A DNA stretch of 64,000 nucleotides from Rhodohalobacter mucosus (GTDB taxonomy: Bacteria; Bacteroidota; Rhodothermia; Balneolales; Balneolaceae), in contig NZ_QGGB01000002.1 in assembly GCF_003150675.1 (NCBI RefSeq), positions 248,001 to 312,000 of the forward strand. The letters are read 5' to 3'. The translations under genes and the position numbers were made by a program. Every line of letters begins with the position of its first letter. Position 1 is the first letter of the stretch. Of this stretch, positions 1-29,948 are shown piece by piece. Below the pieces are notes generated by a model. That model saw nothing but the letters and a program-made list of their open reading frames with translations, was not told the origin of the DNA and did not search any database.

Positions 1-821
1 TTATGAAAAATGATCCTGAACTGACATGGCGTGAAATTCAGGTTGCAGTCTGGATTCTCGTACCATTTCAGGATTTCGACATGAATATGCCTGCAAGTGA
101 ACTGCCCGAGGAAGTGAGAAGCAACGGTCAGCCCAATTTCAACAAAGAAAAGGTACAGGATATCGTTGATGCGGTTCTAAGCAGGAGTGCTGCCAAAACA
201 ACTTCCTTTAGCGGCATGGCCAGCAGCACAACTGATGATGATTACGAAAAAACCATGTGTGTAATCGGCACCAATGAAGATACTCAAACTCTGATTGTAC
301 CCTGTGATGAAACTGCATTCGCTTACGGTGGCACCAAAGAGGCTGACTTTAACGGTCTTGCAGGTGATACAGAGGATGGCGTATCCCTGGATCCCTATGC
401 CCACTGCTTCCCTGATGACGAAGAAATCGAAGATACACGCTGGGGCTGGACAAACGGTGCACTTGGCGAAGGCACCTATACATTCCCACTCTATGCAGGA
501 GCTGGTAAATGCAATCTTTCTAAAGGACAGTATTCAGGTGACGTCGAAATTGTATATGAGGGCTCAACAGTTAAAGTCACTTTTACTGCAGCTCCTGGAG
601 TCACCTTCTACCAGGAAGATGGGGAGTCTGAAACACATCTATATGTGGGTAATGTGAAAATGCCCGCTTCCGGAGCCGCTCCCGGTAAATATCCGAATAA
701 TGACGATGTTGTTTCATCTTCTGATACCGAGGTAGTTTATGAAGTGACCGGCGTATCCGGTGACATATATGTCGTTGCTCATGCTGTGATGGCTGGTTAT
801 GAAGTACCTGAAGTAGAGTAA
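1..821 (+). CDS. Thioester-domain-like lipoprotein paralogue, 5' end outside window
   Basis: The reading frame is open from the left edge. It aligns along its whole length with the C-terminal two thirds of the lipoprotein at 1440-2606, so the start codon, signal peptide and first half of the N-terminal domain lie outside the window; the ATG at position 3 is an internal methionine. Visible parts are the Gln-containing motif IQVAVW (Gln codon 39-41), a middle region with four cysteines in the same order as in the paralogue, and a C-terminal beta-rich domain ending in an AHAV motif. Role is inferred from the paralogue: a surface lipoprotein, possibly an adhesin. A strong terminator follows, so this is the last gene of its transcript. 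Confidence 0.8.
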   Translation, partial: MKNDPELTWREIQVAVWILVPFQDFDMNMPASELPEEVRSNGQPNFNKEKVQDIVDAVLSRSAAKTTSFSGMASSTTDDDYEKTMCVIGTNEDTQTLIVPCDETAFAYGGTKEADFNGLAGDTEDGVSLDPYAHCFPDDEEIEDTRWGWTNGALGEGTYTFPLYAGAGKCNLSKGQYSGDVEIVYEGSTVKVTFTAAPGVTFYQEDGESETHLYVGNVKMPASGAAPGKYPNNDDVVSSSDTEVVYEVTGVSGDIYVVAHAVMAGYEVPEVE

Positions 822-1439: not shown

Positions 1440-2606
1440 ATGCTTTACAGGGGTATACTTGCACTATTAGTTCTTGCTTTTACGATTATCACATTTGTAG
1501 CATGTGATGTGACATCAGAAAAAGCACTTGATGAATCACTTGAACCTGTTCCTAATGTTACCGCAATAGAAGGAGCAGAAAATGCATCCGTACGGGTAAA
1601 CAATGGCACTACCAGCAATTTCACTGTCGACATACAAAATGTTGAATGGAATACGCTGATTTCAAATGGTGAGCGTGAAGCTTACTGTATTGCGTGGAAA
1701 GACCCAATCAGCAGAAACGATGCTATTTATGAAGAGGTGGGTGTCTATTCAACAGAAGATGATGAAAAGTTTGCAGATATAAATCGCTTATTTTCAATAA
1801 AAAATGAACTCATGAACAATGATCCTGAGCTGACCTGGCGCGAAATCCAGGTGGCAATTTGGGTTCTTGCTCCATTCCAGGATTTTGACATGAATATGCC
1901 GGTTAGTGAACTGCCTGAAGAAGTCAGAAGCAATGGACAGGCTAATTTTGACAAAGAAAAGGTGCAGTTTATCGTGGATGCTGTTTTAAATAGAAGTTCA
2001 GCTAAAACTGTTGAGGGATTTGACGGATCCGCAGACTTTTGGTCATTCAAAAAGAAAAAAACCATGTGTGTAATAGGTACGGATAAAGACACACAATCAC
2101 TTATTACCCCATGTGATGAAACAGCATTCGCATACGGTGGTAATCATGATGCCGATTATGCCGGTATTGCGGGCATTCCGGGATTGGATGGTTATGCCAA
2201 CTGTTTCCCTGAAAGCCCGTTTCGCGCTCCGGCAAGATGGGGATGGACAAACGGTAAACTTGAGGAAGGCGAGTATGAATTTCCGCTGTATGCAGGTGCT
2301 GGATTGTGCAATCTTTCAAAAGGACAGTATTCGGGTGATGTTAAGATCGATTATAATGATGGAAAAGCGTCCGTAACATTCACAGCTTCAGATGGCACAT
2401 CTTTTCTTGAAACTCATTTACATGTGAGCAATCACCCGCTACCAAGGTTAAGAAATGGCAGAATTACTCTCGCTCCGGGCCAATATGCAAGCAATGATGA
2501 TGTTGTTTCAATCACTGAAACAGAAGTTATTTATGAAGTGAACGGACTAGATGGTGATGTTTACGTTATTGCACATGCTGTTATGTCTGGTTATCTATCG
2601 GATTGA
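1440..2606 (+). CDS. Lipoprotein with thioester-domain-like N-terminus
   Basis: A 388-residue protein with a hydrophobic N-terminus and a lipobox ending at Cys22, followed by Asp23 and an acidic DESL stretch, as expected for a surface-exposed lipoprotein in Bacteroidota relatives. Residues about 60-185 contain Cys83 (YCIAW) and Gln137 (IQVAIW). The QxA[IV]W pattern with an upstream Cys is the hallmark of Gram-positive thioester (TED/TQXA) domains, in which Cys and Gln form an internal thioester that captures host amines. A middle region has Cys210, Cys225, Cys255 and Cys290, possibly disulfide-bonded. A C-terminal beta-rich domain ends in AHAV. It is the complete paralogue of the partial gene at 1-821 and the two lie in tandem. 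The domain call is an inference from motifs; the lipoprotein call is firm. Confidence 0.8.
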   Translation: MLYRGILALLVLAFTIITFVACDVTSEKALDESLEPVPNVTAIEGAENASVRVNNGTTSNFTVDIQNVEWNTLISNGEREAYCIAWKDPISRNDAIYEEVGVYSTEDDEKFADINRLFSIKNELMNNDPELTWREIQVAIWVLAPFQDFDMNMPVSELPEEVRSNGQANFDKEKVQFIVDAVLNRSSAKTVEGFDGSADFWSFKKKKTMCVIGTDKDTQSLITPCDETAFAYGGNHDADYAGIAGIPGLDGYANCFPESPFRAPARWGWTNGKLEEGEYEFPLYAGAGLCNLSKGQYSGDVKIDYNDGKASVTFTASDGTSFLETHLHVSNHPLPRLRNGRITLAPGQYASNDDVVSITETEVIYEVNGLDGDVYVIAHAVMSGYLSD

Positions 2607-7373: not shown

Positions 7374-8180
7374 ATGAATGTACATGTATCACGAACTTTC
7401 AAACCAGGACCGTCACTGCCGTCTATCTTTTTAGCCGGAGTGCTTTTCATTCTGTTTATGCCCGGATGCAGCACAAACAGTGAACCCAACCCGCGCATGT
7501 CCATGTTTGTGGGGATTGATATCAGCGGATCCTTCGTGAACAGCGACTATTTTGAGAACTCCATGTCATTCCTGGCCCACTACATCTACTCGCACCTGAA
7601 CGGAGTGGGCGGATTTGAAGAGCCGAATGTTCTCTTTGTGGCTCCCATCGGGGGCGCGGACGTTGATCAGCCCAAGACCTTCTACCCAATCCAGACGTTT
7701 CAGAATAAGTCGGTAGAGGAGATTGAAGAGCTGCTCTATGAGCTCTTCCCAACGGATCAGCTGGACCCGATCACCGATTTCAACGCCTTCTTTGAACATA
7801 TTGCCCGTACCGTGGAGAACCACAACCTGGTGCTTCGTCCAATTTCGGTGGTGATGCTGAGCGACGGGATTCCTGACTATCATGTAGAGGGAAACCGGCA
7901 GATGAGGGATTTCCGCGCGATTGACCTCAGTCCGCTTGAGCGGCTATCCCGTAATATTACCATACGGCTGCTCTACACCAATCCGGTGGACGGACGTTCG
8001 TGGCAGACCGAGGTGCCACGGCGGCGCGTCAAGATCTGGACGCAGGATTCCGACGTGATGGAAACCTGGAACGACCCTGATATCTACCTCGAGGATCGAC
8101 CCCTGCAGCAGCAGGAGCGCTGGATTGAGTGGACGGCAGAGAATGTGAATTACAATGTCCGAGCCCGGAGGGTAGACTGA
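7374..8180 (+). CDS. vWA-domain lipoprotein
   Basis: A 268-residue protein. A hydrophobic stretch (residues about 16-31) ends in a lipobox at Cys32. The mature part starts with FVGIDISGSF, a DxSxS metal-ion-dependent adhesion site (Asp49, Ser51, Ser53). VVMLSDGIPDYH further on is the SDG element of von Willebrand A domains. The protein is therefore probably an envelope-anchored vWA protein that binds a partner through a divalent ion; the partner is unknown. Its last 100 codons are repeated at 11636-11938 with about 91 percent identity and almost only synonymous changes, so this 3' end may have been replaced when the cassette at 8.7-11.5 kb arrived. Confidence 0.8.
   Translation: MNVHVSRTFKPGPSLPSIFLAGVLFILFMPGCSTNSEPNPRMSMFVGIDISGSFVNSDYFENSMSFLAHYIYSHLNGVGGFEEPNVLFVAPIGGADVDQPKTFYPIQTFQNKSVEEIEELLYELFPTDQLDPITDFNAFFEHIARTVENHNLVLRPISVVMLSDGIPDYHVEGNRQMRDFRAIDLSPLERLSRNITIRLLYTNPVDGRSWQTEVPRRRVKIWTQDSDVMETWNDPDIYLEDRPLQQQERWIEWTAENVNYNVRARRVD
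7878..8180 (+). repeat. Copy 1 of duplicated gene 3' end
   Basis: This 303-bp segment, the last 100 codons plus stop of the vWA lipoprotein gene, is repeated in direct orientation at 11636-11938. By eye the copies differ at about 26 positions, of which only about two change the protein. Homology stops at the stop codon. Confidence 0.9.
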
Positions 8181-12572: not shown

Positions 12573-14405
12573 ATGAGAAGCAAGCTATATCTCAGTTTTC
12601 TGATCTTAGTGATTGGAGCACTGTATCTAACCGCATGTGATAATACAACAAGTGGAAGCTTTGAGGACTCACTCGACGTTTTCACAGGTTTGGAAATTAT
12701 ACCGGAAGCATCAAATTCTACCATGTTTGTTAGTAAAGGAGATCAGGTAGGAGGCGATAGTTATTTCCAAATAGAAATCGAAGGCATTGGCGAGAACACT
12801 TTCCTGCAAAATGGCACCCATGGTGGATGGTGTCTGGAATGGAAGAAAACAATTCGTTCAAACAATGATGAGCATAAAGATCTGAATTGGTACACTTCTC
12901 AAGGCAGTGAGAAGTGGAAGCCGCTTAATTATTTATTCCTGATTCGCGATGAGTTGGAAGTTTCTTTCCCGGACCTATCCATTTACGATCTTCAGGCAGC
13001 TGTATGGGTATTGGCCGGCGACATGGGAATTGCACCAGAATTCAACGTCGATAGAGTCACAGCTAGTGAACTATCTGCTGACATGCTGCAAGATGGTGTT
13101 CCCAGATATGACAAAGAAACTGTAAAGGCAGTTGTTGAGAAAGTGATGAGTGAGTTTTCTGATCCGGAGCATGAATATCTTCTCGAAGGCGTAACCGGAA
13201 CCATTGCAGAAACAAGTTCTGATGAGCAGGATGTATTTGTTCCCGGCGAACCATCTGATCCGTGTGAGGAAGGAACCATTGATCCGAACAAAGTGGATGT
13301 GATGCTGCTGTTCGATGATACCGGAAGTTTTGCTGGTTTTGTAGATGACGTTGCAGCTCTTTTCCCGAGTATTATTTCAACCCTTGAATCTACTTTCCCA
13401 GATAAAGATTTTGCTTTTGGGGTTTCAAGATTTGAAGATTATGGTGGTCCAGGTACCGGATTTTCAGGAGAAGTAACAACAGGTAGACCGTTTATTCTTA
13501 ATCAGCCACTGGTTACAGAGAGTGTTGCCGGCAGTGCAGCAGCTCGTGATGCATTGATTTCAGATGCTTTAAGTAATACGGCACCTGGTTTTGGTGGTGA
13601 CGGACCGGAAACAGCACTTCACGCTCTTTATGAATTAGCAATTGGAGAGGGATTTGATGGAAATGGCGACGGACTTACTACCGGAAGTGGTGACGCAGGA
13701 TCATTAGCTGCTCAAACCAGCCCTGGAACAAGTGGTGACGTCCCTGCTTTTGCCTCCAACGTCTTGCCAACATCTGGTACACTGGGAGGTGCAGGATGGC
13801 GAACCGATGCACAAAAAATCGTCATACTTGCGACAGATGTATGTACAGTTGCACCTGTTCCTGCATCACTTGGATTGTCACTTACTTCAACAATTGAAGG
13901 GCAACCTGGAACCTCAGAGCCACTCTCAAGGCTTGTGTGCAGTAGTGTATATTCATCATCTGGTTCTAGTAGATATGGCGATATTTCAGATGCAAAATCT
14001 TCTGCAGCTAATACTGTTCCGAATGCAACGGTACCGTCAGAATCTCCAAGTGTCATTGAAACTGTTGATGCTCTGACATCCTTTGGTATTCAGGTTATAG
14101 GATTATCTACAGATGGAGCTGCAACTGATGCTACTGGTCCATCATTTGGGGGTTCAAATGTATATTTATCAGCATTGGCTAACCTCACAGGTGCCAACGA
14201 CCCAAGTACAGGTGATCCGCTTGTGTTTTCTATTACTACTAGCGCATCTTCTATTGCAGCGGGGATAGTTGAGGCGGTTGGAACGAGTGCATGTGATGCA
14301 ACTGCTGCAAGTGCTGCGAAAATATCCAGCTTTACAAATTCACTGCGCTTGTCATCGGCTGAAACCGATACAACCGAAGATTCTAATTATGTGATCTTCG
14401 ACTAG
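12573..14405 (+). CDS. Lipoprotein with thioester-like domain and vWA domain
   Basis: A 610-residue protein. Lipobox LTAC (Cys22) is followed by Asp23 and an EDSL stretch, as in the other large lipoproteins here. Residues about 65-200 are homologous to the N-terminal domain of the 388-residue lipoprotein: Cys87 (WCLEW) and Gln141 (LQAAVW) are 54 residues apart, exactly the spacing of Cys83 and Gln137 there. Residues about 240-580 form a vWA domain that starts VDVMLLFDDTGSF, with a MIDAS-type DxTxS (Asp248, Thr250, Ser252), resembling the integrin beta A domain. A thioester-like domain next to a vWA domain recalls Gram-positive pilus and surface adhesins. A strong terminator follows. Confidence 0.82.
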   Translation: MRSKLYLSFLILVIGALYLTACDNTTSGSFEDSLDVFTGLEIIPEASNSTMFVSKGDQVGGDSYFQIEIEGIGENTFLQNGTHGGWCLEWKKTIRSNNDEHKDLNWYTSQGSEKWKPLNYLFLIRDELEVSFPDLSIYDLQAAVWVLAGDMGIAPEFNVDRVTASELSADMLQDGVPRYDKETVKAVVEKVMSEFSDPEHEYLLEGVTGTIAETSSDEQDVFVPGEPSDPCEEGTIDPNKVDVMLLFDDTGSFAGFVDDVAALFPSIISTLESTFPDKDFAFGVSRFEDYGGPGTGFSGEVTTGRPFILNQPLVTESVAGSAAARDALISDALSNTAPGFGGDGPETALHALYELAIGEGFDGNGDGLTTGSGDAGSLAAQTSPGTSGDVPAFASNVLPTSGTLGGAGWRTDAQKIVILATDVCTVAPVPASLGLSLTSTIEGQPGTSEPLSRLVCSSVYSSSGSSRYGDISDAKSSAANTVPNATVPSESPSVIETVDALTSFGIQVIGLSTDGAATDATGPSFGGSNVYLSALANLTGANDPSTGDPLVFSITTSASSIAAGIVEAVGTSACDATAASAAKISSFTNSLRLSSAETDTTEDSNYVIFD

Positions 14406-15635: not shown

Positions 15636-18600
15636 CTAATTAAACGTGATGGAAGGCGAATCGTTTAGTGTAACTGTGTTTGCCGTAACAGTCACAGTAA
15701 TGGTCTCGGCCACTGTATTCGTTACGCTAACGGTGTAGGTTCCGGGTGTACCGGTTTCGGTTACGATACCGTCGGTAGTGGCGCTGCCATCGGGACTAAT
15801 CGTGAAATCGCCTGAAGTTAGCCCCGTGATCGCATTGCCGTTGGCGTCCTGGAGCACGATAGTTAATGTGGAGCTGCCTCCAACTGTAAGTGTTGTCGGA
15901 TCAGCTGTAACTGAAGAGACAGATGCACTCACCGCTCCCGGATTTACGTCAAACGCATTGGAGGTGCCCGTCACTCCGGTGCCCTGACCGGTGGCCGTGA
16001 TCGTCTGACCGGTGCCCGACAGCGTCACGTCCACATCCAGGGTAACCGTACCACTTGTAAATGCTGCCGTTGTAGGGCTGATCGTCCCGGCCGTGGTGGT
16101 CAGGTCCGCGGTCTCCGCAAAGGAAGCGTCCAGGTTTCCAAAATCATCCAGCGCATTCAGCGTGATGGAAAACGGCGTGCCGGCGGTTTGCGGCGAAGCA
16201 ATTGTCGCTATTTCAATTGCCGAGGCCGAAGCCGCCTGCACCGTAAACGGGCCGGAGATGACATCCGCCACGCCCACTGCATCCGCGTTAAAGGTGATTG
16301 TATATCCTGTGGCTGCTGCCTCTATCACCAGGTTTGTGAATTCCGCAATTCCGTCTGTACCGCTCGCTTCCAGTACCGTACTGGTTCCCGTAAAATCATT
16401 GCTGCTTAATGTCGCCGTTACATTCACTCCGTTTACCGCGTTCCCAAAAGAATCTTCAATAAGTACGGCCGGTGCCGGATTTATCGCAGTTCCCGCAGTA
16501 GTCAATGAAGGCTGCACGTTAACTGTCATAGAGGATGCCGCAGCTGCTGTTACGCTTACAGCTGCCGTTTCATTCGCCGTTACCCCATCCACGTCCACGG
16601 TCAGGGTATGAGTATCAGCCGTGGTCAGTGTAACGGGCACGCTGCCTGCACCAGCAGTGAATGTTACCACCGTATTGTGCACTTCGCCGTCAATGTCGCT
16701 GGTCACCGTAACGTTGATGCTTCCATCCAGAAGTACGCCATCTATGCCGCTCGCATCGCTGATTCCAAGATTAAATCCGGATCCGGCTGTCTGTCCACCG
16801 GGATCAGCAACCGTAAAGCCCGAGGCATCCGTGAAACTTCCTGTAGCCGTCGTGCTATTGCTGTTCACCTGTTCGGTGAAGGTAAATATTACACCCGACT
16901 GCACCGTCGAGGAAACCGCCGTAAAGGTTACCTGGCCATTTGCATCGGTATTTAATGTTGATCCGGATGGATAGGTAATCGCAGTTCCATCATCGCTTGC
17001 AATCACAGAAGCACCCGAAACTGGGTTCGCATTGGCATCCGCAACCGTCACCAGGTATTCAAGCTCACTGATTCCATCGGCTGCCGCGCTGCCCTGAACG
17101 GTCGACGCCGATACTGAGGCCGGAGCGCCCGCTACAAATTCCACATCCGCCGTACCCACCACTGCACCTGTCGCGTCAGTGCCAAGGTACCCGGTCACCG
17201 TAATCGTGTTGGCATCCACGGAGGTCAGCGTTGCTGTGGCGACACCATTTACATCCGTTGTCCAGGGACCCGTGCTCAGCGTACCGCCTGTTCCTGAGGT
17301 TAGTTCAAAAAAGACATCCTCACCCTCCAGCAGATTGTCTGACCCGTCACGCGCGGTGATGGTCAGTGTCGAAAGATCCGTCCCGTTAGCCGTCAATCCC
17401 GTTGCAGGATCCGCTCCAATCGTTGACTGAGTAGCATCCGCCGCTCCGGCCAGTACCGTCAGTCCAACTGTCGCATTATCGCTGGCTTCAACATTGCCGT
17501 CTGCATCGCTGATCGAACCGGTAATTACCACAGCTCCCGACTCATTAGCTGATCCGGTCACCACTGCTGTTGCCTGGCCCGAGGCATTGGTCAACGCAGA
17601 TGCATCCACGGTCGCGCGCGTGATTTGATCACTTGAAAAACTTACCGCCACTCCCTCCACCGGATTCGCATTAGCATCCAGCACCGTAGCCGTTACACTC
17701 GTCGACCCATCCAGGGCAATTTCAGAATCGGCAATCGTCAGCGAACTGATTTGTGTGGCCGCGCCCGCTATAAACTCCACATCCGCCGTACCCAACACTG
17801 CGCCTGTATTATCGGATCCAAGATAACCGGTCACCGTAATCGTGTTGGCATCCACGGAGGTCAGCGTGGCTGTGGCGACACCATTTAGATCCGTTGTCCA
17901 GGGTCCTGCGCTCAGCGAACCACCGGTTCCTGAGGTTAGTTCAAAAAAGACATCCTCACCCTCCAGCAGATTGTCTGACCCGTCACGCGCGGTGATGGTC
18001 AGTGTCGAAAGATCCGTCCCGTTGGCCGTCAATCCCGTCGCAGGATCCGCTCCAATCGTTGACTGAGTAGCATCCGCCACGCCGGCCTGGAATTCAATAA
18101 TGGGTGTATTTTCCAATACAACACCATCGGCGGTTATCGTCACCGTAACTGACTCGACCGTACTATTGGTTACATCAACCGTATAGGTGCCGCTTGTTCC
18201 GATTTCAGACACAGTTCCCGGCGATGCTGAGGTAAGCCCCAAATCAACGGTAAAATCGGTATTGATTAATCCGGAAATGGGGTTGCCATTGGCATCCTGT
18301 ACCGCGATCGTAACGGTTGAAGCATCCGACCCGTCAGCCGTATGCGGCGAGGTCGCCGTAACCGATGAACCCGATGCGCTCACCGCACCCGGGTTCACAT
18401 CAAAGTTGTTCGAGGTGCCGGTGATCGCCCCGTCGGTCGCGGTAATCGTCTGGCCGGTTCCTGCACCGCTCACATCCACGCTCAGGCTTGCCACTCCCGC
18501 TGTAAACGTTGCCAACGCCGGCGTGATGGTTCCCGCCGTAGTGGTCAGCGTGGCCGTTCCGTTGTATGCATCAGCCGTATTGCTGCCGGCGTCCAGCGCT

Positions 18601-21600
18601 GTAATCGTAATTCCAAAATCCGCACCGGCCGTTTGCGGGGATGTTATCGTATCAAAAGAGAAGGATGCTGCGGTTCCCGCACTCACCGTACTCGTATACG
18701 GACTGCCCGAGATACCGGTCGTGTTCAGTGTAATGGTAATCTCATCATCACCGGCAGCTGACGGTGTGTAGCCGGCTGAGTAGCTTCCTCCGCCGTCATC
18801 GCTGAATGCACTCACCGTTGCGCCCGCATTGGGTCCGCCGCTCACCGAAGCTGCCAGATTTGCCGCCTCACCGGTCACTGCGTTTCCAAAGGCATCCGCA
18901 ACGTTCACCGTGATGGTAGTTGGCGCTCCCGCCGTGCCGGCCGGTACCGTCGCGGTGGTTGAGGCCGGATCAGCTGCTGCCGGGTTTACATCAAACGTGT
19001 TCGACGTTTCGGTTATGGCGCCGTCGGTGACGGTCAGGGCTTGTCCGCTGCCTGACTGTGTGATCGTTACACTCTCTGTAGCTTCACCGTTTACAAATGA
19101 AAGTGATGTAGGTGCGATGTCACCGACTGTATTTCCAAGAACAGCGGTTGCATTGTAGCCGCTCACGGTATTGTTGCCGCTATCCACAGCACGTACATTA
19201 ATGCCGAAGTTTGCTCCTGCCGTTTGAGGAGTTGGAATTGTTCCTATCTCAAAACCCGATAACGTACCCGCTGTCGCATCAGCCGTAAACGTGACGGTTT
19301 CGGTGCTCCAGGATGCATCCACGCTGTAGGTTCCGGTTTTATCGCCCAGTGTCATAGTGGTGGATGCCTGACCGTTCGGATCTGTAAGAACAGCCGTTGC
19401 ACTCAGTGACTGACCGACGGCATCAACGGGAGTACCCGAAATACTGAAACCAACCGACTCACCTTCCACCGGATTGCCGAAGGCATCGTTTACCTGTACG
19501 ATGAACGGTTGGGCAAGCGTCTGACTGATTTCCGCACTTTGGCCGGTCCCCGATACCGCGGTCAATGCAGAAGCTGTACCCGCACTCACAACAGTTGAAT
19601 AGGGACTTCCGCTGATAGCCACTGCATTAAGCGTAATGGCAATATCGTCCGTGCCTGACGCAGTCGGTGTATAGCTGCTGCTGTACACGCCGCTGCCTTC
19701 AGCCACTACAGGGGCAAACACCGCGCCTGTATTCGGGCCGGTGCCAATACTGAGTGCAAGATCACCCTCTGCCCCGTTCACCGGATTGCCAAACGCATCC
19801 TGAACGGTGATGGAAATGGCTGTCAGCTCACCTGCTGTTCCATTAGCGGGAACGGAGGCTGTTGTTTGAGCTGGATCGGATGCAGCTGCGGTCACGTCAA
19901 ATGTGGAAGAAACCGCATTGACTGCAACGCCCACTGCACTAAACTCGAGATTGTAGGAGCCTGTTTGTGTAAAAACGAGGTCAGAAAAACTTGCGATTCC
20001 GTCCGGCCCTGTCGAAACGGTAAATGTTCCGCTGCTGAACGATGCGCCGCCCTGTTCGCTCACAGTTACCTCAATTCCTTCTACGGGATTGTTCAGATCG
20101 TCATCCACGCGTACGGCCGGCGGACCGGAGATCGTTTGCCCCGCCACAGTGGTGCCGGGCTGTTGCGTGATCACGACAGCATCTGCGTCGCTGGTTGAAA
20201 CCGTACTTGTAAACGGACTTCCCTGAATCTGGACGCCACCCGCCGTGATCGTGATCTGATCATCACCGGTTACGGTAGGCGTATAGCTTGTAGTATAAAC
20301 ACCGTTTCCTGTCTCAGCAACAGCAGTGAATGACGCTCCTGCATTTGGGCCTGAAGTAACTGATGCGGCAAGATCAGCGGAAGCTCCTTCAACACGGTTT
20401 CCGAATGCATCCTCAACGGTAATGGTGATATTGGTAGCATCACCAGCCGATCCGTTCGGAACGGAAGCAGTTGTGGATGCAGGATCCGGGTCTGCAGGAG
20501 AAACGGTAAAGGCATTCGATGTAGCGGCTTCGGTGGCAGCAGAGAAAACCAGGTTGTACTGTCCCTCGGGACCCAGCACCAGGTTGCTGAACTGCACTTC
20601 ACCATTCAGATCGGTCAGCAGCGTCAAATCTCCCGACACAAATGCCTGTCCGCCCTGCTCAGTAACCGATACACTTACGTTGGGAACACGATTGTTGAAC
20701 TGGTCCGTCAGGCGAACAGTGGGCGGTCCGGGGATGGCCTGACCCGCTATCGCACTACCCGGTTGAGTCGTAATCACGATCAGATCCACCGCGCCGGCCT
20801 CAAATGTAATATCAGGCTGATCTTGCAGCAGTACGCCACTTGCCGTGACCGTTACAGTAACTGTCTCCGCTGTGGTGTTGTTTACCGTGAATATGTAGGT
20901 TCCGTCGGTGGCGGTTTCGGTAACCGAACCTTCTGATCCGGAGCCAGTTACACCAAGTGAAAAATCTGTGTTTGTCAGCCCGCCAATCGGATTGTTGCTA
21001 CCATCGCGCAGTTCAACGGTTACCGTGGAGCTGTTTCCTGCCTGAAGCGTCAGCGGATTGGCGGTCACTGATGAATTAACCGCACTGATATCGCTGGTTG
21101 TGACGTTGCTCGTATAGGGACTGCCGGATATGGCTATGCTGTTCAGCGTTATGGCAACATTATCGGAACCTGCTACCGTTGGTGTATAGCTTGCCGTATA
21201 TTCGCCCGCCGTTCCGGTTTCACTGACGGTTGGTGTGGCACTGTTATCGCCTGTTACCTCTACTGAAAGATTTCCGGCTTCACCGCTTACCGGATTATTA
21301 AATGCATCCAGAACCGTGATGGTAATCGTAGTCGGGTTGCCCGCAGTTCCGTCAGGGACGACAGCCGTGGTGTTGGCCGGATCGGCTGCCGCGGTGCTGA
21401 CATCGGTTGAATAGGGGCTTCCGCTGATGACGCTACTGCCCAAAGTGATGCTCACCTCATCCGTACCCGATGCGGTTGGTGTATAGCTTGCCGAATAGGT
21501 CCCTGCCCCGTCATCGCTAAAGGCACTGACCGTTGCTCCCGCGTTGGGTCCGCCGCTGATCGTTGCAGCAAGATTCGCTGCCTCACCCGTTACCGGATTA

Positions 21601-24600
21601 CCAAAGGCATCTTCAACGTTTACCGTGATTGCTGTTGACTGACCCGCCGTACCGGCCGGTACCGTTGCCGTCGTTGAGGCCGCATCGGCCGGTGCTGCGT
21701 TTACATTAAATGCGTTTGAGGTTCGATTGGTTACGCCCGCAGAAGCAAAAACCAGGTTGTAGCTTCCCGCTGTACTGATTGCGATGTTATCAAAGATGGC
21801 AAATCCGTCAGCATTTGTATTTACGGATGATACACTGCCGGCCACAAATGGTGTGCCTCCCTGCACGGTTACAGTGACGCCGGCACCGGGCACCGGATTG
21901 CCCAATGCATCGGTAATCCTAACCGCGGGCGGACCCGCAATCGCTTCACCGGCTGTGGAAGCTCCGGGTTCGGTCGTGATCAGCATCAGATCCGGATCAG
22001 CAGCGGTGAAGGTGATATCAGGCTGATCCAGCAGTAACACGCCATCCGCAGTTACGGTAACAGTCACTGTCTCGGCCGTATTGTTATTAACAGTGAATGT
22101 GTAGGTTCCCGCTGTGCCGGTTTCGGATACGGTGCCTGCTGTGGCATCACCGCTTGCTGCAATCGTGAAGTCCGTTACACCCCCAATTGGATTGTTGCTG
22201 CCATCTCGGAGCTCGATAGTTACCGTGGAGGGGGTTCCGGCCTGAAGTGTCACCGGATTGGCCGTCACGGTTGACTGATCCGCGCTCACTCCGCCCGTCT
22301 GCACATCAAACGCATTGGATACTCCGGAAATGGCACCGTCAGTGGCGGTAATGGTTTGATCCGTACCGGCTTCACTCACAGAGAGATCCAGCGTAATTTG
22401 TCCGTCCGAAAAGGCCGGTGTGGTATTGGGCGCCACCGTTCCCGCCGTGGTTGTAAGCGTTGCAGTTCCGGTGTATCCGCTGGCCGTATTAGTAAATGCA
22501 TCCTGAGCTGTGATGGTCACGCTGAATGGTGAGCCGGCCGTCTGTGGCGTGGCAATGGTGCTGAACTCAAAACTGTTGGCCGCACCTGCCTCTGCAGTTG
22601 CAGTAAATGTTTGAATTCCTGCACCGCCTGCATCCGCATCAACCGTATAGACGCCGGACAGATCACCCAGTGTAAGCAGTGTCGATACGGAACCCGAAGC
22701 GTCCGTTACCGCATCGGTAACAGAAAGGGCCTGACCCGATGCACCGGCCGGTACGGTATTGAATGAAAAAGCGACATTTTGTCCCCCTACCGGATTGCCA
22801 AACGCATCGGTCACTTCAACTGAGAGGGGTACCGCCAGCTGGGTCGCCACGGTACCGCTTTGGTTATTTCCTGATAAGATAGTTGACGCGGATGCCGTTG
22901 CTGCCACCACATCAAAGAGATCACTTACCGCATTATCGGTAACTCCCACCGCATTAAATGTAAGCGAGTACGATCCTGCCGGGTTGACCACCAGGTCACT
23001 GAACTGTGCCACACCGCTGCTGTTTGTAAACTGTTGAACCGTACCCGATGCAAATGCCTGTCCGCTAGTCTCGGTCACGTTCACCTCTACGTTCTGAACC
23101 GGATTCCCCAGATCATCGGTAACCGTCACAGACGGGGGCCCTGAGATTGCTGCTCCTGCCGTGGTCTGCAGGGGTTGTTGCGTTATCGCCACATTTTCAG
23201 CATTGCTTGTAATCACGGTGCTTGTGTACGGACTTCCGCTGATCGCCGAACCGCCAAGCGTGATAGAGAGCTGATCGTCACCGGTGCTTACCGGAGTATA
23301 ACTGGTCGTATAAATTCCGTTGCCGCTTTCGGTAATCGGTGCCACTGTTGCACCCGCATTGGCACCGCTCACGGATACGCTCAGGCTTCCTGCGATCCCT
23401 GTAACACGGTTGCCGAAAGTATCTTCAGCGGTGATGGTGATCGTTGTCGGATCACCGGCTGATCCGCCCGGAACCGATGCGGTGGTTTGAGCAGGGGACG
23501 CTGCGGCTGGAATCACATTGAACGCTGCGGAGGTCCCAATCTGGCCTGATGCCGTAAAGACCAGGTTATAGCTTCCTGCCTCATTAATCACCAGATCCGT
23601 GAATGACGCTTCGCCTGAAGCATTGGATGCCCGCGTAAGCGTGCCTGCTGCAAAAGTCTGGCCGCTTTGCTCGGAAACGGTAATGTCGACACCCGGTACC
23701 CTGTTGCCAAATTCATCAATCAGGCGAACCAGCGGAGGACCTGCAATGGATTGACCCGCTACGGACTCCCCTGGCTGGGTCTGGATGCCGGTGATTGAAA
23801 CGTCTCCGGCTTCAAATGTAATTTGCGGTGTATCATTCAGGGTTACGCCGGATGCGGTAACCGTGACCGTAACAGCCTGGGCTGTTTGATTCTGTACGGT
23901 AAATTGATATGTACCGGTTGTGGTTTCACTGACGCTGCCTGCCGTCGCCGCACCGGTTACGTTAATGGAAAAATCTGTGTTTGTGAGCCCACCAATAAGA
24001 TTGTTGCTGCCGTCCCGCACCAGTACGGTTACCGTTGAACTGCTGCCAACCTGCAGCGTTGACGGATTGGGAGTTACCGTTGAATTTGATGCGCTGATAT
24101 CGCTGGTTGTCACCTGGCTGGTGAACGGACTGCCGCTGACCGGACTGCCGCTCAGAGTGATGGCGATGTTATCCGTTCCGGCTACCGTTGGTGTGTAGCT
24201 GGTGGTGTAAACGCCCGGTGTTCCGCTTTCTGTCACTGCCGGCGACGCACTGTTGGAGCCGCTCACCGATACGGACAGGTTACCTGCCTGGCCTATGACC
24301 GGGTTGTTAAACTGATCCAGTACCGTAATGGAGATATTTGTCGGGTTGCCCGCGGTTCCATCCGGCACCGTTGCAGTGGTGTTGGAGGCAACAGGTGTAT
24401 CTGCATTTATTGTGAATGAAGAGGAGGTTTCATCCGCCACACCCGCTGCATCCGCGTTAAACAGAAGCGTGTAGGTGCCTGCGGATTGAATAATCAGATC
24501 ATCGAAAAGAACTGTTCCGCCTGCATCAGTCACTCCGCTCAGGGTACCTGAACTGAATGATCCGCCCTGCAGTGATACCGTTACCCCGATGCCCTGAACC

Positions 24601-27600
24601 GGATTTCCGCCTGCATCGTCCACCCGTACTTCCGGAGCCGGTGTAATGATATTTCCTGCTGTTGTGTTAACGGGCTGCTGCGTAATAACCAGGTCCGTCG
24701 CGGAACCAATTTCGGCTGCAGCACTGAACGTGACCGATCCGATGGCACCGCCGTCCGCGTCAACGGTGTATGTGCCGGCTTTGTCACCCAGTGTGAACAG
24801 TACGGACGCTTCACCGGTTGATCCGGTTAAAACACTGCTACTGCTCAGAGACTGTCCCGCAGCACCGGCCGGGGTCTGGTCAATTGCATAATTGACGGCA
24901 TATCCTGATACCGGGTTGTTGAATGCATCCGATACCCTCACAGTAAGCGGGTTGGCCAGCTGGGTGGATATTTCGCCCGTCTGGTTATTTCCGGAGACAA
25001 GCTCTATCACGGAAGCGGCCGCCGCTGTAAAGGTAACGGAAGGTGAATCAGTCAGCGGTACTCCGGACACTGTGACGGCAACACTAACGGTTTCTGCCGT
25101 TTCATTTGTAATGGTTGTTTCATACGTACCGGCTGTTGCTGTTTCGGTAACGGTTCCCGCTAAGGCTGAACCGGTAAGGCCAATCGTAAAGGCACTGTTC
25201 TGAAGACCGCTCACAGGATTTCCGATCGCATCCTGAAGTACAATCGTAAGCACCGAACTGCCACCGGCCTGCAGTGATATCGGGTTGGCCGTTACGGACG
25301 AGTTACCGGCATCGATGCCGCCGGTTTCGACGTCAAAAGTGTTGGATGTGCCGGTAATGGTGCCATCCTGAGCTGAGATGGTCTGCGCACTTCCTGCCTG
25401 CGTCACCTCTGCATTCAGTACGGCCTGTCCTCCTGTAAACCCTGCCGAGGCCGGTGTTATGGTTCCCGCCGTTGTGCTTAGTGCTGCGGTACCATTGTAT
25501 CCTGAAGCTGCGTTATTCTGCGCATCAAACGCCTGAATGGTAATTCCGAACGGCTGGCCTGCAGTCTGCGGTGATGAAATTGTTCCGAATTCGAACCGGT
25601 CTGCAGCACCTGCTGCCGCTGTAGCATTGAACTGTACGCTTGTCAGGCCTGTGGCAGATGCAATAACCGAGTAACTGCCTGCAACGCTTCCCAACGTTAA
25701 TAGAGTGGAAGCCTCGCCTGCTGCATTCGTCTGAACCGTTGTTGCAGAAAGTGACGTGCCGGCAGCGCCTGACGGTTCCGAATTGACTGCAAAATCGACC
25801 GAAACCGACTCAACCGGATTTCCGAATCCATCCGAAACGCGTACGGTAAACGGATCTGTAAGCGTCTCGGTAACGGTACCCGTCTGATTGTTGCCGGATA
25901 CCAGGTTCATGGCCGCGGGAGCAGAAGGAACAACATCAAAAGGCTGCGAGACAGCGTTATCCGTTGCACCGATTGCGTTGAATTCAAGCGTATAGCTGCC
26001 CGCATCATCAATCACCAGATCATCAAATATCGCAACTCCGCTTGAATTTGTACTCTGTGAAACGGTTCCCGAGCTGAATTCACCGGTCTGTACCGAAACC
26101 GTAACCTCTACACCCTGAACCGGATTGTCGAAACTGTCCGTAACAAGCACCGAAGGCGGCCCTCCAATTGGCGCACCTGCTGTTGTCTGCAGCGGCTGCT
26201 GGGTTATGGCCACATTTTCTGCATCACTGGTGATGACCGTACTTGTGTACGGGCTTCCGCTGATTGCCGCACCCCCAAGCGTGATAGCTATCTGATCATC
26301 TCCCGTGGATGCCGGGGTGTAACCGGTTGTATAAATCCCGTTTCCGCTTTCGATAATTGCCGTAACGGCGGCACCCGCATTTGCGCCGCTTACGCTAACA
26401 GCCAGGTCTGCCGCAACGCCTTCCACACGATTTCCGAATGCATCCTCAACCGTTATCGTGATCGAGGTAATGTCACCGGCCGCACCGTTTGGTACATTGG
26501 CTATTGTTGAGGCGGGATCCGCAGGAGCAGCAATCACATCAAATGCATTGGATGTTGCCACCAGGCCTGCAGCAGAGGTGAATACCAGATTGTAAGTACC
26601 CGTTTCAGTAATCACTGCATCACTGAACGCTGCAGTACCCGCCGTGTTCGTCTGAATTACAAGCGTACCGCTGATGGATGAATGGCCGCTCTGTTCAGAC
26701 AGCGTAACCTCAATGCCCGGAACAGGGTTGTTGAAGGTATCACGAAGAAGAATAGAGGGTGTTCCTTCAACAGGCTGACCGGCCACGGACTGCTGAGGCT
26801 GGGAGGTAATGGTAATCTGGGTCGGTGCTCCCGCGTTAAATGTAATAACCGGTGTATCATCCAGACTGACACCATTCGCCGATACCGATACGCTAACCTG
26901 CTCAGCAGTAGTGTTGTTTACGTTGAATTCATATACGCCCGGCGTGGTTTCAGACAATGATCCTGCCGAGGCATCGCCGGATACGGAAACCGTGAAATCA
27001 CCGGCCGACAATCCGCCAATCAGGTTGCCGCTGCCGTCACGAAGCTCTACGGTAACGGTTGAGCTGCTTCCCACCGTTACACTTGCAGGGTTTGCGCTAA
27101 CCGCTGAGTTCGACGGACTGATATCGCTTGTCGTCACATCACTGGTAAACGGGCTGCCCGGCAAAGCGGCACCTGATAGTGTAATGTCTATATTGTCGGT
27201 ACCTGATGCGGTTGGTGTATAGCTTGTGGTATATTCACCCGTGTTTGCTGTTTCAGATGCGGCCGGAGAAGCGCTGTTGGCCCCGGTTATATCAATTCCG
27301 ATATTGGCCGCCTCGCCGCCTGCCGGATTGCCGAATGCATCAAACAGTTCCACTGTAATTACGGTTTCAGAACCGGCCACGCCGGATGCCGGTACAGTTG
27401 CCGATGAGCTTGCTGCATCCGCAGCAGCTGCCGTTATGTCGAACGAACCCGATGTTACATCAGGCGCACTGCCGCTGTCTTCGGAGAAGATCAAGCTGTA
27501 TGTTCCGGCCGTCTCAATAACCAAATCATTGAACTGTACGATACCTGAAACATCAGATGCAGCTGATAGCGTCCCGGAATCAAATGAATATCCGCCCTGC

Positions 27601-29948
27601 TCTGCAACGGTTATAGTCACTCCCTCCAGCAGGTTGCCTCCGGCATCCCGCACTTCAACCTGCGGCGCCGGGGCAAGCGTTTCACCTGCTGTTGCAGCAC
27701 CCGGCTCCTGGAGCAGAGTCAGACTTGATGGCACTCCCAGTTCAGCCTGGGCCGTAAAGACCACGTCGCTTGTTAAACCGGCAGACGCGGTCACCTCATA
27801 CGATCCCGGTGTGCTGCCCAGGGTCAGGATTGTGGAAGCCAGTCCGTCAGGGCCCGTAACCACCGACTCTGCAGACAGGCTCTGTCCCAGGGCTCCCGGT
27901 GGACTCTGTGAAATGGCAAACGAAACCGTACGGCCGGAAACCGGGTTACCAAACTCATCCGATACTGCTGCCACAAATGGCGCAGCAAGTTCCTGTGTTA
28001 CGGTACCTGTCTGATTGTTCCCGCTCGCTATTGTAATTTCATTCGCATTACCCGCCAGGAACGTAATTTGCGGATTTTGAGAAAGAGTCACCGCATCTGC
28101 TCTTACAGAAAGGGTGATGGTTTCAGCAACCGTGCTCGTGACGGTAAAGGTATACTCACCCGCATTGGCAGTTTCAGAAATAGCACCCGCAGACGCATTG
28201 CCCAGGCCTGATACCTGAATATTATTCTCGATTCCGCTTACCGGATTGTTCTGGCTGTCGCGCAGCGAAACGGTAACCGTTGAGCTGCCTCCCACCACAA
28301 GTTCAGTCGGGTCTGCTGATACACTGGAATTTACAGAACTGACGGAGCTGGTGATAACTGTGCTGGTAAAGGGGCTTCCGGCAATTTCAGTGCCGTTCAG
28401 GGTGATGGATATATCATCCGTTCCGGCTGATACCGGAGTATAAGAGGATGTGTAGAGACCGTTACCCTGATCCGTAACCGATGTGAAGGACGCCCCTGTA
28501 TTTCCGGAAATCACCTCAAGAGCGATAAGCGATGCCGCACCTTCTACAGGGTTGCCGAAAGCATCGGATACCGTAATGTCGATAGCGGTTGATTCGCCTG
28601 CTGCGCCGTCTGGTACCGTTGCACTGCTGTTGGCCGGATTGCCGGCTGCAGCCGTCACAGTAAAAGCGGAGGATGTCAATTGCGGGAGGGCCGTATCATC
28701 CGCAGTAAACGTAATCTGATATCCTTCGGATGCAGTTTCAATGGTAAGATTTTCAAAAGCCGCAATCCCGTTCTGATCTGTAACGGACTGCAGCGTACTG
28801 CCCGGCGTAAAATCATTCTGGTTCAGGGTAGCCGTAATGTTCTCACCCTGTACAGGATCACCGAATCCATCAATGAGTGTTACAGCAGGAGCCGGAGCTA
28901 CTGCGGTTCCCGCAACGGTTTCACCCGGTTGTGTGGTTATGGTAAACTGCGGCGATCCTTCCTCTTCAAATTCTGCCGTTACAGCCTTATTGCTGTCCAT
29001 GATCAGCGTGGCGGGATTATCCGTCGTGTTCAGGTCGCCCGACCATCGGCCGAATCTCCATCCTGTATCCGGTGTAGCCGTCAGGCTTACCTCGGTTCCG
29101 TCAGGATAGGAAACAAGGTCAGGGTCGGCTGATACAATCCCCTGACCGCTCACTGAAAGAGTAAGGTCAAACTCCTCAGACTGTTCCTGAACAAAAACGG
29201 CTGTGATATTCTTGTCCGTATCGGCAACAACATCCACAGGGTTTTCGCTGCCGGTCAGATCTCCCTCCCAGCGGTTAAACTCCCAGCCGGTTTCCGGCTG
29301 TGCGGTGAGCCGGTAGGTGGCCACAACCTGCTCCATCATGGTACCTGTAAATTCCTGAACAACCCTGTTTCCGCTCGTTTGAACGGTTCCCGGGCTGGGC
29401 GGACTAAGCCTTCCGGGGCCTGAAACAGAAGCACCTTCAAGATCTTCCCTGTTTCCTGTAATATCCCTTTCACCGGTATCCTGAACACTTTCAGGCGGTG
29501 CATTGTCACCTGAGGTACCGTTCTGACCGGCAGTATCCGGTGGTGCGCTAAGCTGCTGTGAACCGGTTGTTTCAGTACTTACCACATCCTGAATCACTTC
29601 GCCCTCACCCACAATCGTAATATTCAGCTGTCCCTGCAGTTCAGCAAAAAGGGCTGTAATGCTGAGGTTCCTGCGGATAAAAAGCTCTGCGGGGTTCTGG
29701 GTGCCTGTAAAGTCACCCTGCCACTCTTCAAAAAGAAATCCATCGGAAGGTTCTGCGCGCAGTATGATGCGTGAACCGTCAACGAATTCACCGCCGGAGG
29801 GTGTCACCGTGCCGCTATTTTCCGGACTTACATTTGTGGTTAGCGTATAATTTTCCGGAAGGGAATCGTCGAAAGGAGTAGTGGATGTATCACAACTAAA
29901 GGTGAACACCGCGATCACTATAGCGATTCCGTATAAAAGTCTGCGCAT
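15636..29948 (-). CDS. Giant Ig-like repeat lipoprotein (4770 aa)
   Basis: Signal peptide with lipobox TFSC (Cys19), then Asp20 and FDDSL. Residues about 33-332 hold three InlB-type/beta-strand repeats, recognised by EEWQGDFTG, NRWEGDLTG and GRWSGDLNT. One has a disordered insert rich in Pro, Gly and Ser. From about 333 to the end I count roughly 44 Ig-like modules of about 100 residues in several recurring types: ITTQPG..TAGQ..., VTVP.G.AG..T.ITV.D.FGNPV, SVTANP..L.AG.SSTVTV.LRD, SGNNQTG, and F.FGTI.SPQTAG. These resemble invasin/Big_1 and filamin-type domains. I see no cysteine beyond Cys19 and very few lysines. No tip domain and no T9SS sorting signal follows the last module. Most likely an outer-membrane-anchored stalk or adhesin, perhaps over 150 nm long if extended. 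Confidence 0.9.
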   Translation of the reverse strand: MRRLLYGIAIVIAVFTFSCDTSTTPFDDSLPENYTLTTNVSPENSGTVTPSGGEFVDGSRIILRAEPSDGFLFEEWQGDFTGTQNPAELFIRRNLSITALFAELQGQLNITIVGEGEVIQDVVSTETTGSQQLSAPPDTAGQNGTSGDNAPPESVQDTGERDITGNREDLEGASVSGPGRLSPPSPGTVQTSGNRVVQEFTGTMMEQVVATYRLTAQPETGWEFNRWEGDLTGSENPVDVVADTDKNITAVFVQEQSEEFDLTLSVSGQGIVSADPDLVSYPDGTEVSLTATPDTGWRFGRWSGDLNTTDNPATLIMDSNKAVTAEFEEEGSPQFTITTQPGETVAGTAVAPAPAVTLIDGFGDPVQGENITATLNQNDFTPGSTLQSVTDQNGIAAFENLTIETASEGYQITFTADDTALPQLTSSAFTVTAAAGNPANSSATVPDGAAGESTAIDITVSDAFGNPVEGAASLIALEVISGNTGASFTSVTDQGNGLYTSSYTPVSAGTDDISITLNGTEIAGSPFTSTVITSSVSSVNSSVSADPTELVVGGSSTVTVSLRDSQNNPVSGIENNIQVSGLGNASAGAISETANAGEYTFTVTSTVAETITLSVRADAVTLSQNPQITFLAGNANEITIASGNNQTGTVTQELAAPFVAAVSDEFGNPVSGRTVSFAISQSPPGALGQSLSAESVVTGPDGLASTILTLGSTPGSYEVTASAGLTSDVVFTAQAELGVPSSLTLLQEPGAATAGETLAPAPQVEVRDAGGNLLEGVTITVAEQGGYSFDSGTLSAASDVSGIVQFNDLVIETAGTYSLIFSEDSGSAPDVTSGSFDITAAAADAASSSATVPASGVAGSETVITVELFDAFGNPAGGEAANIGIDITGANSASPAASETANTGEYTTSYTPTASGTDNIDITLSGAALPGSPFTSDVTTSDISPSNSAVSANPASVTVGSSSTVTVELRDGSGNLIGGLSAGDFTVSVSGDASAGSLSETTPGVYEFNVNNTTAEQVSVSVSANGVSLDDTPVITFNAGAPTQITITSQPQQSVAGQPVEGTPSILLRDTFNNPVPGIEVTLSEQSGHSSISGTLVIQTNTAGTAAFSDAVITETGTYNLVFTSAAGLVATSNAFDVIAAPADPASTIANVPNGAAGDITSITITVEDAFGNRVEGVAADLAVSVSGANAGAAVTAIIESGNGIYTTGYTPASTGDDQIAITLGGAAISGSPYTSTVITSDAENVAITQQPLQTTAGAPIGGPPSVLVTDSFDNPVQGVEVTVSVQTGEFSSGTVSQSTNSSGVAIFDDLVIDDAGSYTLEFNAIGATDNAVSQPFDVVPSAPAAMNLVSGNNQTGTVTETLTDPFTVRVSDGFGNPVESVSVDFAVNSEPSGAAGTSLSATTVQTNAAGEASTLLTLGSVAGSYSVIASATGLTSVQFNATAAAGAADRFEFGTISSPQTAGQPFGITIQAFDAQNNAASGYNGTAALSTTAGTITPASAGFTGGQAVLNAEVTQAGSAQTISAQDGTITGTSNTFDVETGGIDAGNSSVTANPISLQAGGSSVLTIVLQDAIGNPVSGLQNSAFTIGLTGSALAGTVTETATAGTYETTITNETAETVSVAVTVSGVPLTDSPSVTFTAAAASVIELVSGNNQTGEISTQLANPLTVRVSDAFNNPVSGYAVNYAIDQTPAGAAGQSLSSSSVLTGSTGEASVLFTLGDKAGTYTVDADGGAIGSVTFSAAAEIGSATDLVITQQPVNTTAGNIITPAPEVRVDDAGGNPVQGIGVTVSLQGGSFSSGTLSGVTDAGGTVLFDDLIIQSAGTYTLLFNADAAGVADETSSSFTINADTPVASNTTATVPDGTAGNPTNISITVLDQFNNPVIGQAGNLSVSVSGSNSASPAVTESGTPGVYTTSYTPTVAGTDNIAITLSGSPVSGSPFTSQVTTSDISASNSTVTPNPSTLQVGSSSTVTVLVRDGSNNLIGGLTNTDFSINVTGAATAGSVSETTTGTYQFTVQNQTAQAVTVTVTASGVTLNDTPQITFEAGDVSITGIQTQPGESVAGQSIAGPPLVRLIDEFGNRVPGVDITVSEQSGQTFAAGTLTRASNASGEASFTDLVINEAGSYNLVFTASGQIGTSAAFNVIPAAASPAQTTASVPGGSAGDPTTITITAEDTFGNRVTGIAGSLSVSVSGANAGATVAPITESGNGIYTTSYTPVSTGDDQLSITLGGSAISGSPYTSTVITSNAENVAITQQPLQTTAGAAISGPPSVTVTDDLGNPVQNVEVNVTETSGQAFASGTVQQFTNSSGVAQFSDLVVNPAGSYSLTFNAVGVTDNAVSDLFDVVAATASASTILSGNNQSGTVATQLAVPLSVEVTDAFGNPVGGQNVAFSFNTVPAGASGQALSVTDAVTDASGSVSTLLTLGDLSGVYTVDADAGGAGIQTFTATAEAGAANSFEFSTIATPQTAGSPFSVTITAQDAFTNTASGYTGTATLTTTAGTVAPNTTPAFSDGQITLDLSVSEAGTDQTITATDGAISGVSNAFDVQTGGVSADQSTVTANPVTLQAGTPSTVTIELRDGSNNPIGGVTDFTIAASGDATAGTVSETGTAGTYTFTVNNNTAETVTVTVTADGVLLLDQPDITFTAADPDLMLITTEPGASTAGEAIAGPPAVRITDALGNPVPGAGVTVTVQGGTPFVAGSVSSVNTNADGFAIFDNIAISTAGSYNLVFASAGVTNRTSNAFNVNAAPADAASTTATVPAGTAGQSTAITVNVEDAFGNPVTGEAANLAATISGGPNAGATVSAFSDDGAGTYSASYTPTASGTDEVSITLGSSVISGSPYSTDVSTAAADPANTTAVVPDGTAGNPTTITITVLDAFNNPVSGEAGNLSVEVTGDNSATPTVSETGTAGEYTASYTPTVAGSDNVAITLNSIAISGSPYTSNVTTSDISAVNSSVTANPLTLQAGNSSTVTVELRDGSNNPIGGLTNTDFSLGVTGSGSEGSVTETATDGTYIFTVNNTTAETVTVTVTASGVLLQDQPDITFEAGAVDLIVITTQPGSAIAGQAIPGPPTVRLTDQFNNRVPNVSVSVTEQGGQAFVSGDLTLLTDLNGEVQFSNLVLGPEGQYNLVFSAATEAATSNAFTVSPADPDPASTTASVPNGSAGDATNITITVEDAFGNRVEGASADLAASVTSGPNAGASFTAVAETGNGVYTTSYTPTVTGDDQITITAGGVQIQGSPFTSTVSTSDADAVVITQQPGTTVAGQTISGPPAVRVDDDLNNPVEGIEVTVSEQGGASFSSGTFTVSTGPDGIASFSDLVFTQTGSYNLEFSAVGVAVNAVSSTFDVTAAASDPAQTTASVPANGTAGELTAISITVQDAFGNPVNGAEGDLALSIGTGPNTGAVFAPVVAEGSGVYSSSYTPTASGTDDIAITLNAVAISGSPYSTVVSAGTASALTAVSGTGQSAEISQTLAQPFIVQVNDAFGNPVEGESVGFSISGTPVDAVGQSLSATAVLTDPNGQASTTMTLGDKTGTYSVDASWSTETVTFTADATAGTLSGFEIGTIPTPQTAGANFGINVRAVDSGNNTVSGYNATAVLGNTVGDIAPTSLSFVNGEATESVTITQSGSGQALTVTDGAITETSNTFDVNPAAADPASTTATVPAGTAGAPTTITVNVADAFGNAVTGEAANLAASVSGGPNAGATVSAFSDDGGGSYSAGYTPSAAGDDEITITLNTTGISGSPYTSTVSAGTAASFSFDTITSPQTAGADFGITITALDAGSNTADAYNGTATLTTTAGTITPALATFTAGVASLSVDVSGAGTGQTITATDGAITGTSNNFDVNPGAVSASGSSVTATSPHTADGSDASTVTIAVQDANGNPISGLINTDFTVDLGLTSASPGTVSEIGTSGTYTVDVTNSTVESVTVTITADGVVLENTPIIEFQAGVADATQSTIGADPATGLTANGTDLSTLTITARDGSDNLLEGEDVFFELTSGTGGSLSAGPWTTDLNGVATATLTSVDANTITVTGYLGSDNTGAVLGTADVEFIAGAATQISSLTIADSEIALDGSTSVTATVLDANANPVEGVAVSFSSDQITRATVDASALTNASGQATAVVTGSANESGAVVITGSISDADGNVEASDNATVGLTVLAGAADATQSTIGADPATGLTANGTDLSTLTITARDGSDNLLEGEDVFFELTSGTGGTLSTGPWTTDVNGVATATLTSVDANTITVTGYLGTDATGAVVGTADVEFVAGAPASVSASTVQGSAAADGISELEYLVTVADANANPVSGASVIASDDGTAITYPSGSTLNTDANGQVTFTAVSSTVQSGVIFTFTEQVNSNSTTATGSFTDASGFTVADPGGQTAGSGFNLGISDASGIDGVLLDGSINVTVTSDIDGEVHNTVVTFTAGAGSVPVTLTTADTHTLTVDVDGVTANETAAVSVTAAAASSMTVNVQPSLTTAGTAINPAPAVLIEDSFGNAVNGVNVTATLSSNDFTGTSTVLEASGTDGIAEFTNLVIEAAATGYTITFNADAVGVADVISGPFTVQAASASAIEIATIASPQTAGTPFSITLNALDDFGNLDASFAETADLTTTAGTISPTTAAFTSGTVTLDVDVTLSGTGQTITATGQGTGVTGTSNAFDVNPGAVSASVSSVTADPTTLTVGGSSTLTIVLQDANGNAITGLTSGDFTISPDGSATTDGIVTETGTPGTYTVSVTNTVAETITVTVTANTVTLNDSPSITFN
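17125..17442 (-). repeat. Recently duplicated Ig module, copy 1
   Basis: A 318-bp (106-codon) module inside the giant gene that is nearly identical at DNA level to 17761-18078, at a constant distance of 636 bp (212 codons). Most other modules are recognisable only at protein level. Confidence 0.9.
17761..18078 (-). repeat. Recently duplicated Ig module, copy 2
   Basis: Second copy of the 106-codon module, which begins ADATQSTIGADPATG. The long identical run TTCAAAAAAGACATCCTCAC and its flanks are shared with copy 1. A different Ig module separates them, so the duplicated unit may have been two modules long. Confidence 0.9.

Follow-up and report, generated by a model that had tools for sequence, protein, structure and literature searches.

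The window (the whole 64,000-nucleotide stretch analysed here) encodes three lipoproteins, hereafter P1, P2 and P3, whose homologous N-terminal domain of about 200 residues is probably a class-I-like thioester domain (TED) with an internal bond between Cys83 and Gln219 (Cys87 and Gln219 in P3), a proposal that implies no particular partner. What is new is the family that they represent, lipid-anchored, membrane-proximal and class-I-like, missed by existing models and accompanied by a paralogous clade without the thioester. If this reading is correct, covalent protein capture would be extended to diderm envelopes by a family invisible to current sequence models, and the clade devoid of both bond-forming residues would provide a natural control. 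The corresponding features are as follows, with nucleotide positions in the window.

1..821, forward strand: P1, C-terminal portion of a lipoprotein with a TED, 397 aa when whole
39-41, forward strand: P1 helix Gln
285-287, forward strand: P1 strand Gln219, predicted thioester Gln
1440..2606, forward strand: P2, lipoprotein of 388 aa with lipobox VAC22
P2 residues ~45-230: predicted N-terminal class-I-like TED
P2 residues ~230-388: C-terminal beta domain
1686..1688, forward strand: P2 Cys83 (AYCIAW), predicted thioester Cys, terminating the third model strand, equivalent to strand C
1848..1862, forward strand: P2 Gln137-Trp141 (EIQVAIW), helix alpha2 counterpart of TQxxPhiW, distinct from the bond partner
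2094..2096, forward strand: P2 Gln219, predicted thioester Gln, opening the C-terminal strand, which corresponds to strand Q
12573..14405, forward strand: P3, lipoprotein of 610 aa with lipid Cys22, N-terminal TED and vWA-like C-terminal region
12831..12833, forward strand: P3 Cys87, predicted thioester Cys
13227..13229, forward strand: P3 Gln219, predicted thioester Gln

P1 starts at C2:247631 on the contig, about 370 bases upstream of the window, and the genome sequence gives its Cys83, located outside the window, its Gln137 and its Gln219 the same numbers as in P2. The residue set of P3 consists of Cys87 (GWCLEW), helix Gln141 (DLQAAVW) and strand Gln219. Both P2 and P3 display a clear lipobox with Cys22 as the lipid-bearing Cys. 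The initial annotation had associated the three lipoproteins through a motif pair, a Cys followed by a QxA[IV]W glutamine; their coordinates, lipoboxes and motifs were retrieved as described, together with the spacing of 54 residues separating Cys83 from Gln137 in P2 and Cys87 from Gln141 in P3. Since the shared region is homologous (BLASTP E=1e-25 for P2 and P3, E=1e-117 for P1 and P2), the presence of the motif pair in the three proteins is not due to chance.

Six copies of the domain occur in the window's genome: a TED-only lipoprotein just upstream of P1, the three proteins P1, P2 and P3, a fusion with an SdrD-B-like region and another with DUF3466-like repeats. At the phylum scale, the domain HMM was positive in 9 of 296 sampled genomes, all of them Balneolaceae, one of these (G042) being a weak partial match unconfirmed in the family-level scan, where 23 of 92 Balneolaceae genomes were positive. 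The member set analysed comprises 63 near-complete copies, all from Balneolaceae, 56 bearing the Cys and seven devoid of it. Named carriers are Fodinibius species and Balneolaceae or Bacteroidetes bins, several originating from saline sites according to their record titles. About 24 members are made of the TED alone (mature size ~190-204 aa), others associate it with a C-terminal beta domain, and further fusions involve SdrD-B-like, vWA-like, FN3-like and DUF3466 regions, the vWA reading and part of the FN3 reading being based on sequence motifs. The TED starts about 27 residues past the lipid-bearing Cys, which makes it membrane-proximal and leaves the variable C-terminal domains in a distal position. 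No relatives were retrieved from plasmids (tblastn) or viral contigs, and a scan of the viral contigs for canonical TEDs with the TQAAIW pattern returned unrelated proteins only.

That the domain of P1, P2 and P3 adopts the TED fold, a beta-barrel combined with three core helices in a bundle, is supported by an AlphaFold2 model of P2 residues 22-232 based on an alignment of 23 sequences (mean pLDDT 83.4, above 90 in the core and ~74-85 around the strand Gln). The two best PDB matches of this model with Foldseek both correspond to the Cpa adhesin, with weak E-values of 0.029 and 0.082. The top nine rows obtained with VIA-align are all TED structures (6fwv, 2xi9, 4bug, 5a0g, 5a0d, 5a0l, 4c0z, 6fwy and 5a0n), aligned over 138-166 residues with Z values of 8.1-10.5; an unrelated chain comes tenth, with a Z of 3.0. 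Sequence identity between the P2 model and TED structures amounts to 9-16%, a normal value considering that TEDs share 5-64% identity among themselves (PMC4450167). The model of full-length P2 (12 sequences) is poor, with a pLDDT of 65, and its C-terminal domain matches CBM56 and Ig-like folds at a Z of no more than ~4, too low to be interpreted.

The resemblance to known TEDs put forward in the initial annotation was borne out by structure comparison, with TED structures ranking first in both Foldseek and VIA-align, but not by Pfam. Neither Pfam nor NCBIfam gave a TED match for the window proteins or for the 23 members scanned; PF08341 matched none of these 23 members even at an E-value of 10 and was also negative on the window's genome, and a sequence profile search of the PDB retrieved nothing relevant. 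The alignment of the family with 25 Pfam-recognised Bacteroidota TEDs by hhalign, in which the Cys, Gln and Trp of the two profiles fall in matching columns, scored 24.8, a value that none of 100 column shuffles reached (19.3 at most); as hhalign itself gives a probability of just 3%, this profile comparison is considered supporting evidence and not proof. A weak match was also obtained with plasmid class II TEDs, in which TQxxPhiW is missing (pairwise E 0.014, probability 3%).

In solved TEDs, the Cys is located on strand C and the bond-forming Gln on the C-terminal strand Q; the Gln and Trp of TQxxPhiW belong to helix alpha2, beside the bond, where they hydrogen-bond the Cys backbone, and this Gln is not essential, a Cpa mutant still forming the bond (PMC4450167, PMC6194298). 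A second conserved Gln, overlooked in the initial annotation, is present in the family within an xDxQTxI motif and corresponds to Gln219 in each of P1, P2 and P3. The ranges aligned by VIA-align end at residue 206 of the model, 275 of CpTIE and 255 of PnTIE; as these ends match, and assuming that the last 8 residues are gapless, Gln219 of P2 (residue 198 of the model) is equivalent to Gln267 of CpTIE and Gln247 of PnTIE. Few residues are invariant in the otherwise variable C-terminal part of the domain, and this strand Gln is among them.

The Cys, helix Gln, Trp and strand Gln are each found in 56/56 Cys-bearing members, the strand Gln being shifted by one column in three of them (DQII or DQIV). 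The helix Gln follows the Cys by 54 residues in 43 of these members and by 52-57 in the others, and the strand Gln follows it by 120-136 residues. The Cys motif of TEDs, on strand C, reads [YFL]C-hydrophobic-hydrophilic; in the family, the residue preceding the Cys is Y, as in P1 and P2, F or, most often, W, as in P3. The helix motif keeps its Gln and Trp in all 63 members, and the Thr of TQxxPhiW is mostly I or L. Before the strand Gln stands a Thr in P2, a Glu in P3 and usually T, V, G or an acidic residue elsewhere, hence mostly a polar or small one, and after it mostly a polar-hydrophobic-hydrophobic succession. The published strand motif reads hydrophobic-Q-hydrophilic-hydrophobic-hydrophobic, and its first, hydrophobic position is only partly kept in the family, which weighs against the proposed bond.

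The seven Cys-less members form a DUF3466/HAF-like clade (L006:1438-3276, L024, L046, L068, L083, L088 and L100) with Ser or Leu at the site of the Cys. The helix Gln and Trp are kept in all seven, and the strand Gln is lost in all seven, with P, D, S, Y, Y, E and V at its position. This joint loss identifies the strand Gln as the one that accompanies the Cys; it is a single loss event in one clade of the tree and not a repeated statistical association. Judging from these residues, the clade is a natural, putatively non-reactive version of the TED fold.

The fact that these paralogues keep the TED fold recalls that the fold alone is no proof of the chemistry, and the Cys of the other members could be structural, metal-binding or involved in an intermolecular disulfide, with no thioester formed. 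We regard such a role as improbable, given that the Cys is accompanied by the strand Gln in every one of the 56 members and that the number of Cys is nearly always odd. Twenty-seven members possess no Cys other than the lipidated one and that of the site, which is hence not engaged in an intramolecular disulfide. The remaining Cys-bearing members display an odd count, except L092, the start of which is uncertain, as would be expected if the other Cys pair up, and in the seven Cys-less members the lipidated Cys stands alone. Cys210 and Cys225 of P2 (2067-2114), which flank the predicted thioester Gln219 as they do in P1 and close relatives and have no equivalents in the TED-only members, could form a disulfide bridging the last two strands. 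A bond between Cys83 and Gln137 of QxAIW, as initially proposed, is hardly credible despite the invariance of both residues across Cys-bearing members, since the alpha2 Gln is not the acyl donor in solved TEDs, its mutation in Cpa left the bond intact and it was kept in the seven Cys-less members, where the strand Gln was lost together with the Cys; the fold (VIA-align) and the residue set of the TED then proposed hold, but not this bond, for which solved TEDs use the strand Gln.

According to the Cys83-Gln219 proposal, an internal thioester would arise during folding, as it does in other TEDs, between the Cys that terminates the third strand (Cys83, or Cys87 in P3) and Gln219 of the last strand, and helix alpha2 would hold the site through hydrogen bonds from Gln137 and Trp141 to the Cys backbone. 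An amine or a hydroxyl of a partner would then attack this thioester, and the lipoprotein and the partner would become permanently linked by an amide or an ester.

The family resembles class I TEDs (CpTIE, SfbI, PnTIE and Cpa) by its beta-barrel and helical bundle (Z 8.1-10.5), by the position of the Cys at the end of strand C, of the Gln and Trp on alpha2 and of the second Gln on the last strand, and by the lack of the seven-stranded beta-sandwich that class II TEDs carry as an insert from alpha3 to strand P, the corresponding stretch after alpha3 amounting to only ~17 low-confidence residues in P2 and fewer elsewhere. The Cys-Gln spacing is 120-136, compared to 129-153 in class I TEDs (129 in CpTIE). 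Unlike class I TEDs, which are anchored by a C-terminal LPXTG, these proteins have an N-terminal lipoprotein anchor, their thioester domain adjoins the membrane, [IL]Q replaces TQ and PF08341 misses them; their thioester is a predicted one. Neither LPXTG nor stalk was found in the proteins read, which carry an N-terminal lipobox instead and do not correspond to the definition of TIE proteins, sortase-anchored adhesins in which an N-terminal TED is followed by an isopeptide or ester stalk and a C-terminal LPXTG. Internal Cys-Gln thioesters also serve covalent attachment in complement C3 and alpha-2-macroglobulin, where the fold is different and the Cys and Gln are three apart in CGEQ, instead of 120-136 apart in the window family.

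The initial annotation considered TEDs as known mainly from Gram-positive bacteria, in agreement with the literature: the 2015 paper defining them found TEDs in Gram-positive bacteria only, the fibrillar-adhesin surveys consulted name them in Firmicutes and Actinobacteria, and our literature search retrieved no publication describing TEDs from Bacteroidota or Balneolaceae. PF08341 nevertheless exceeds its curated cut-off in 22 of the 296 phylum genomes (L171-L200), mostly in large proteins, and the existence of Gram-negative TEDs is therefore implicit in existing models. These PF08341 TEDs (L171-L196), as well as the short PEP-CTERM-like ones (L197, L198 and L200), display YC[IV]D and an AVQxAIW helix and carry a strand Gln of the KQKLVLATP type, a strand Gln being likewise present in the window family. 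The short PEP-CTERM-like TEDs also share with the latter a Cys-Gln span near 120 and the lack of an insert. In contrast, most PF08341 TEDs of the phylum are encoded by frames of ~770-2260 aa, in which an Ig-like insertion is present and a lipobox absent; they are recognised by Pfam and were not found in Balneolaceae.

Because the TED is membrane-proximal and the varied domains are distal, the domain is more likely to fix a polymer or a protein to the membrane than to act, like the tip-borne TEDs of Gram-positive bacteria, as a chemical harpoon that attaches covalently to its targets. The candidate cargo would be the exopolysaccharide of the cell itself or a neighbouring giant Ig-repeat protein, tethered to the membrane via the thioester, a possibility that we put forward tentatively, as a serious alternative to adhesion, from the gene neighbourhood. 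The location of the genes in or beside exopolysaccharide loci also argues against a mere replica of Gram-positive adhesins. In nine of the ten TED-positive genomes of genus g7, the distance between a TED gene and an ATP-grasp gene (PF14397, associated with sugar transfer) does not exceed 8 kb, for a chance expectation of 0.3-1.4% per genome. In two g7 genomes considered in detail, TED-only genes and genes combining a TED with a beta domain enclose a series of genes for glycosyltransferases, epimerases, methyltransferases and ATP-grasp proteins, EpsG being among them in one genome. In the window's genome, a Wzz/tyrosine-kinase gene, a fucose-synthase-like epimerase gene and a GDP-mannose dehydratase gene are located directly upstream of the TED cluster, the order from Wzz to TED being common to a congener by gene size and strand, and a UDP-GlcNAc 2-epimerase gene follows P2. 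This synteny is however inherited by descent and indicates association, not function, and other TED genes of the same g7 genomes are not beside ATP-grasp genes. The link with exopolysaccharide loci nonetheless provides a testable function other than host adhesion. The most far-reaching reading, a Gram-negative system whose lipid-anchored, membrane-proximal TEDs covalently fasten to the membrane the exopolysaccharide that the cell produces, or a giant protein of Ig repeats, appears unlikely; if true, it would mean that thioester chemistry builds the envelope instead of gripping a host.

It is somewhat doubtful that these lipoproteins are outward adhesins in the Gram-positive sense, which would be exposed on the exterior of the outer membrane and covalently bind cells, particles or eukaryotes of the brine. 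The TED fold itself supports an adhesin, as do the modular partners of adhesin type (SdrD-B-like, vWA-like and FN3-like, partly as a reading of the sequence) and the giant Big_1/Invasin_D3 proteins encoded close to TED genes in two species. However, the TED is membrane-proximal and does not occupy the tip of a stalk, the TED-only members being stalkless; the named carriers are halophile isolates and metagenome bins from brine or sediment, with no host-associated pathogens among them; and most members have no obvious acidic run after the lipid Cys.

A lipoprotein of 4770 aa made of Big_1/Invasin_D3 Ig-like repeats is encoded at 15636-29948 on the reverse strand, and in a congener a Big_1/Invasin_D3 repeat protein of 2116 aa directly adjoins a TED pair (L106:11528-17878). 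The C-terminal region of P3 reads like a von Willebrand A domain with a MIDAS-like DDTGS motif; it has no Pfam match, and its comparison to the PDB gave noise only, at an E-value of 0.16. Another lipoprotein (7374-8180), with a MIDAS-like DISGS motif and no Pfam match, possibly carries a vWA domain. The C-terminal domain of P2 (2118-2603; WGWTNG...YAGAG.C.LSKG...ETHLHVS...VYVIAHAV), to which no Pfam model corresponds, is also found in other families of the phylum, including proteins of 900-3300 aa.
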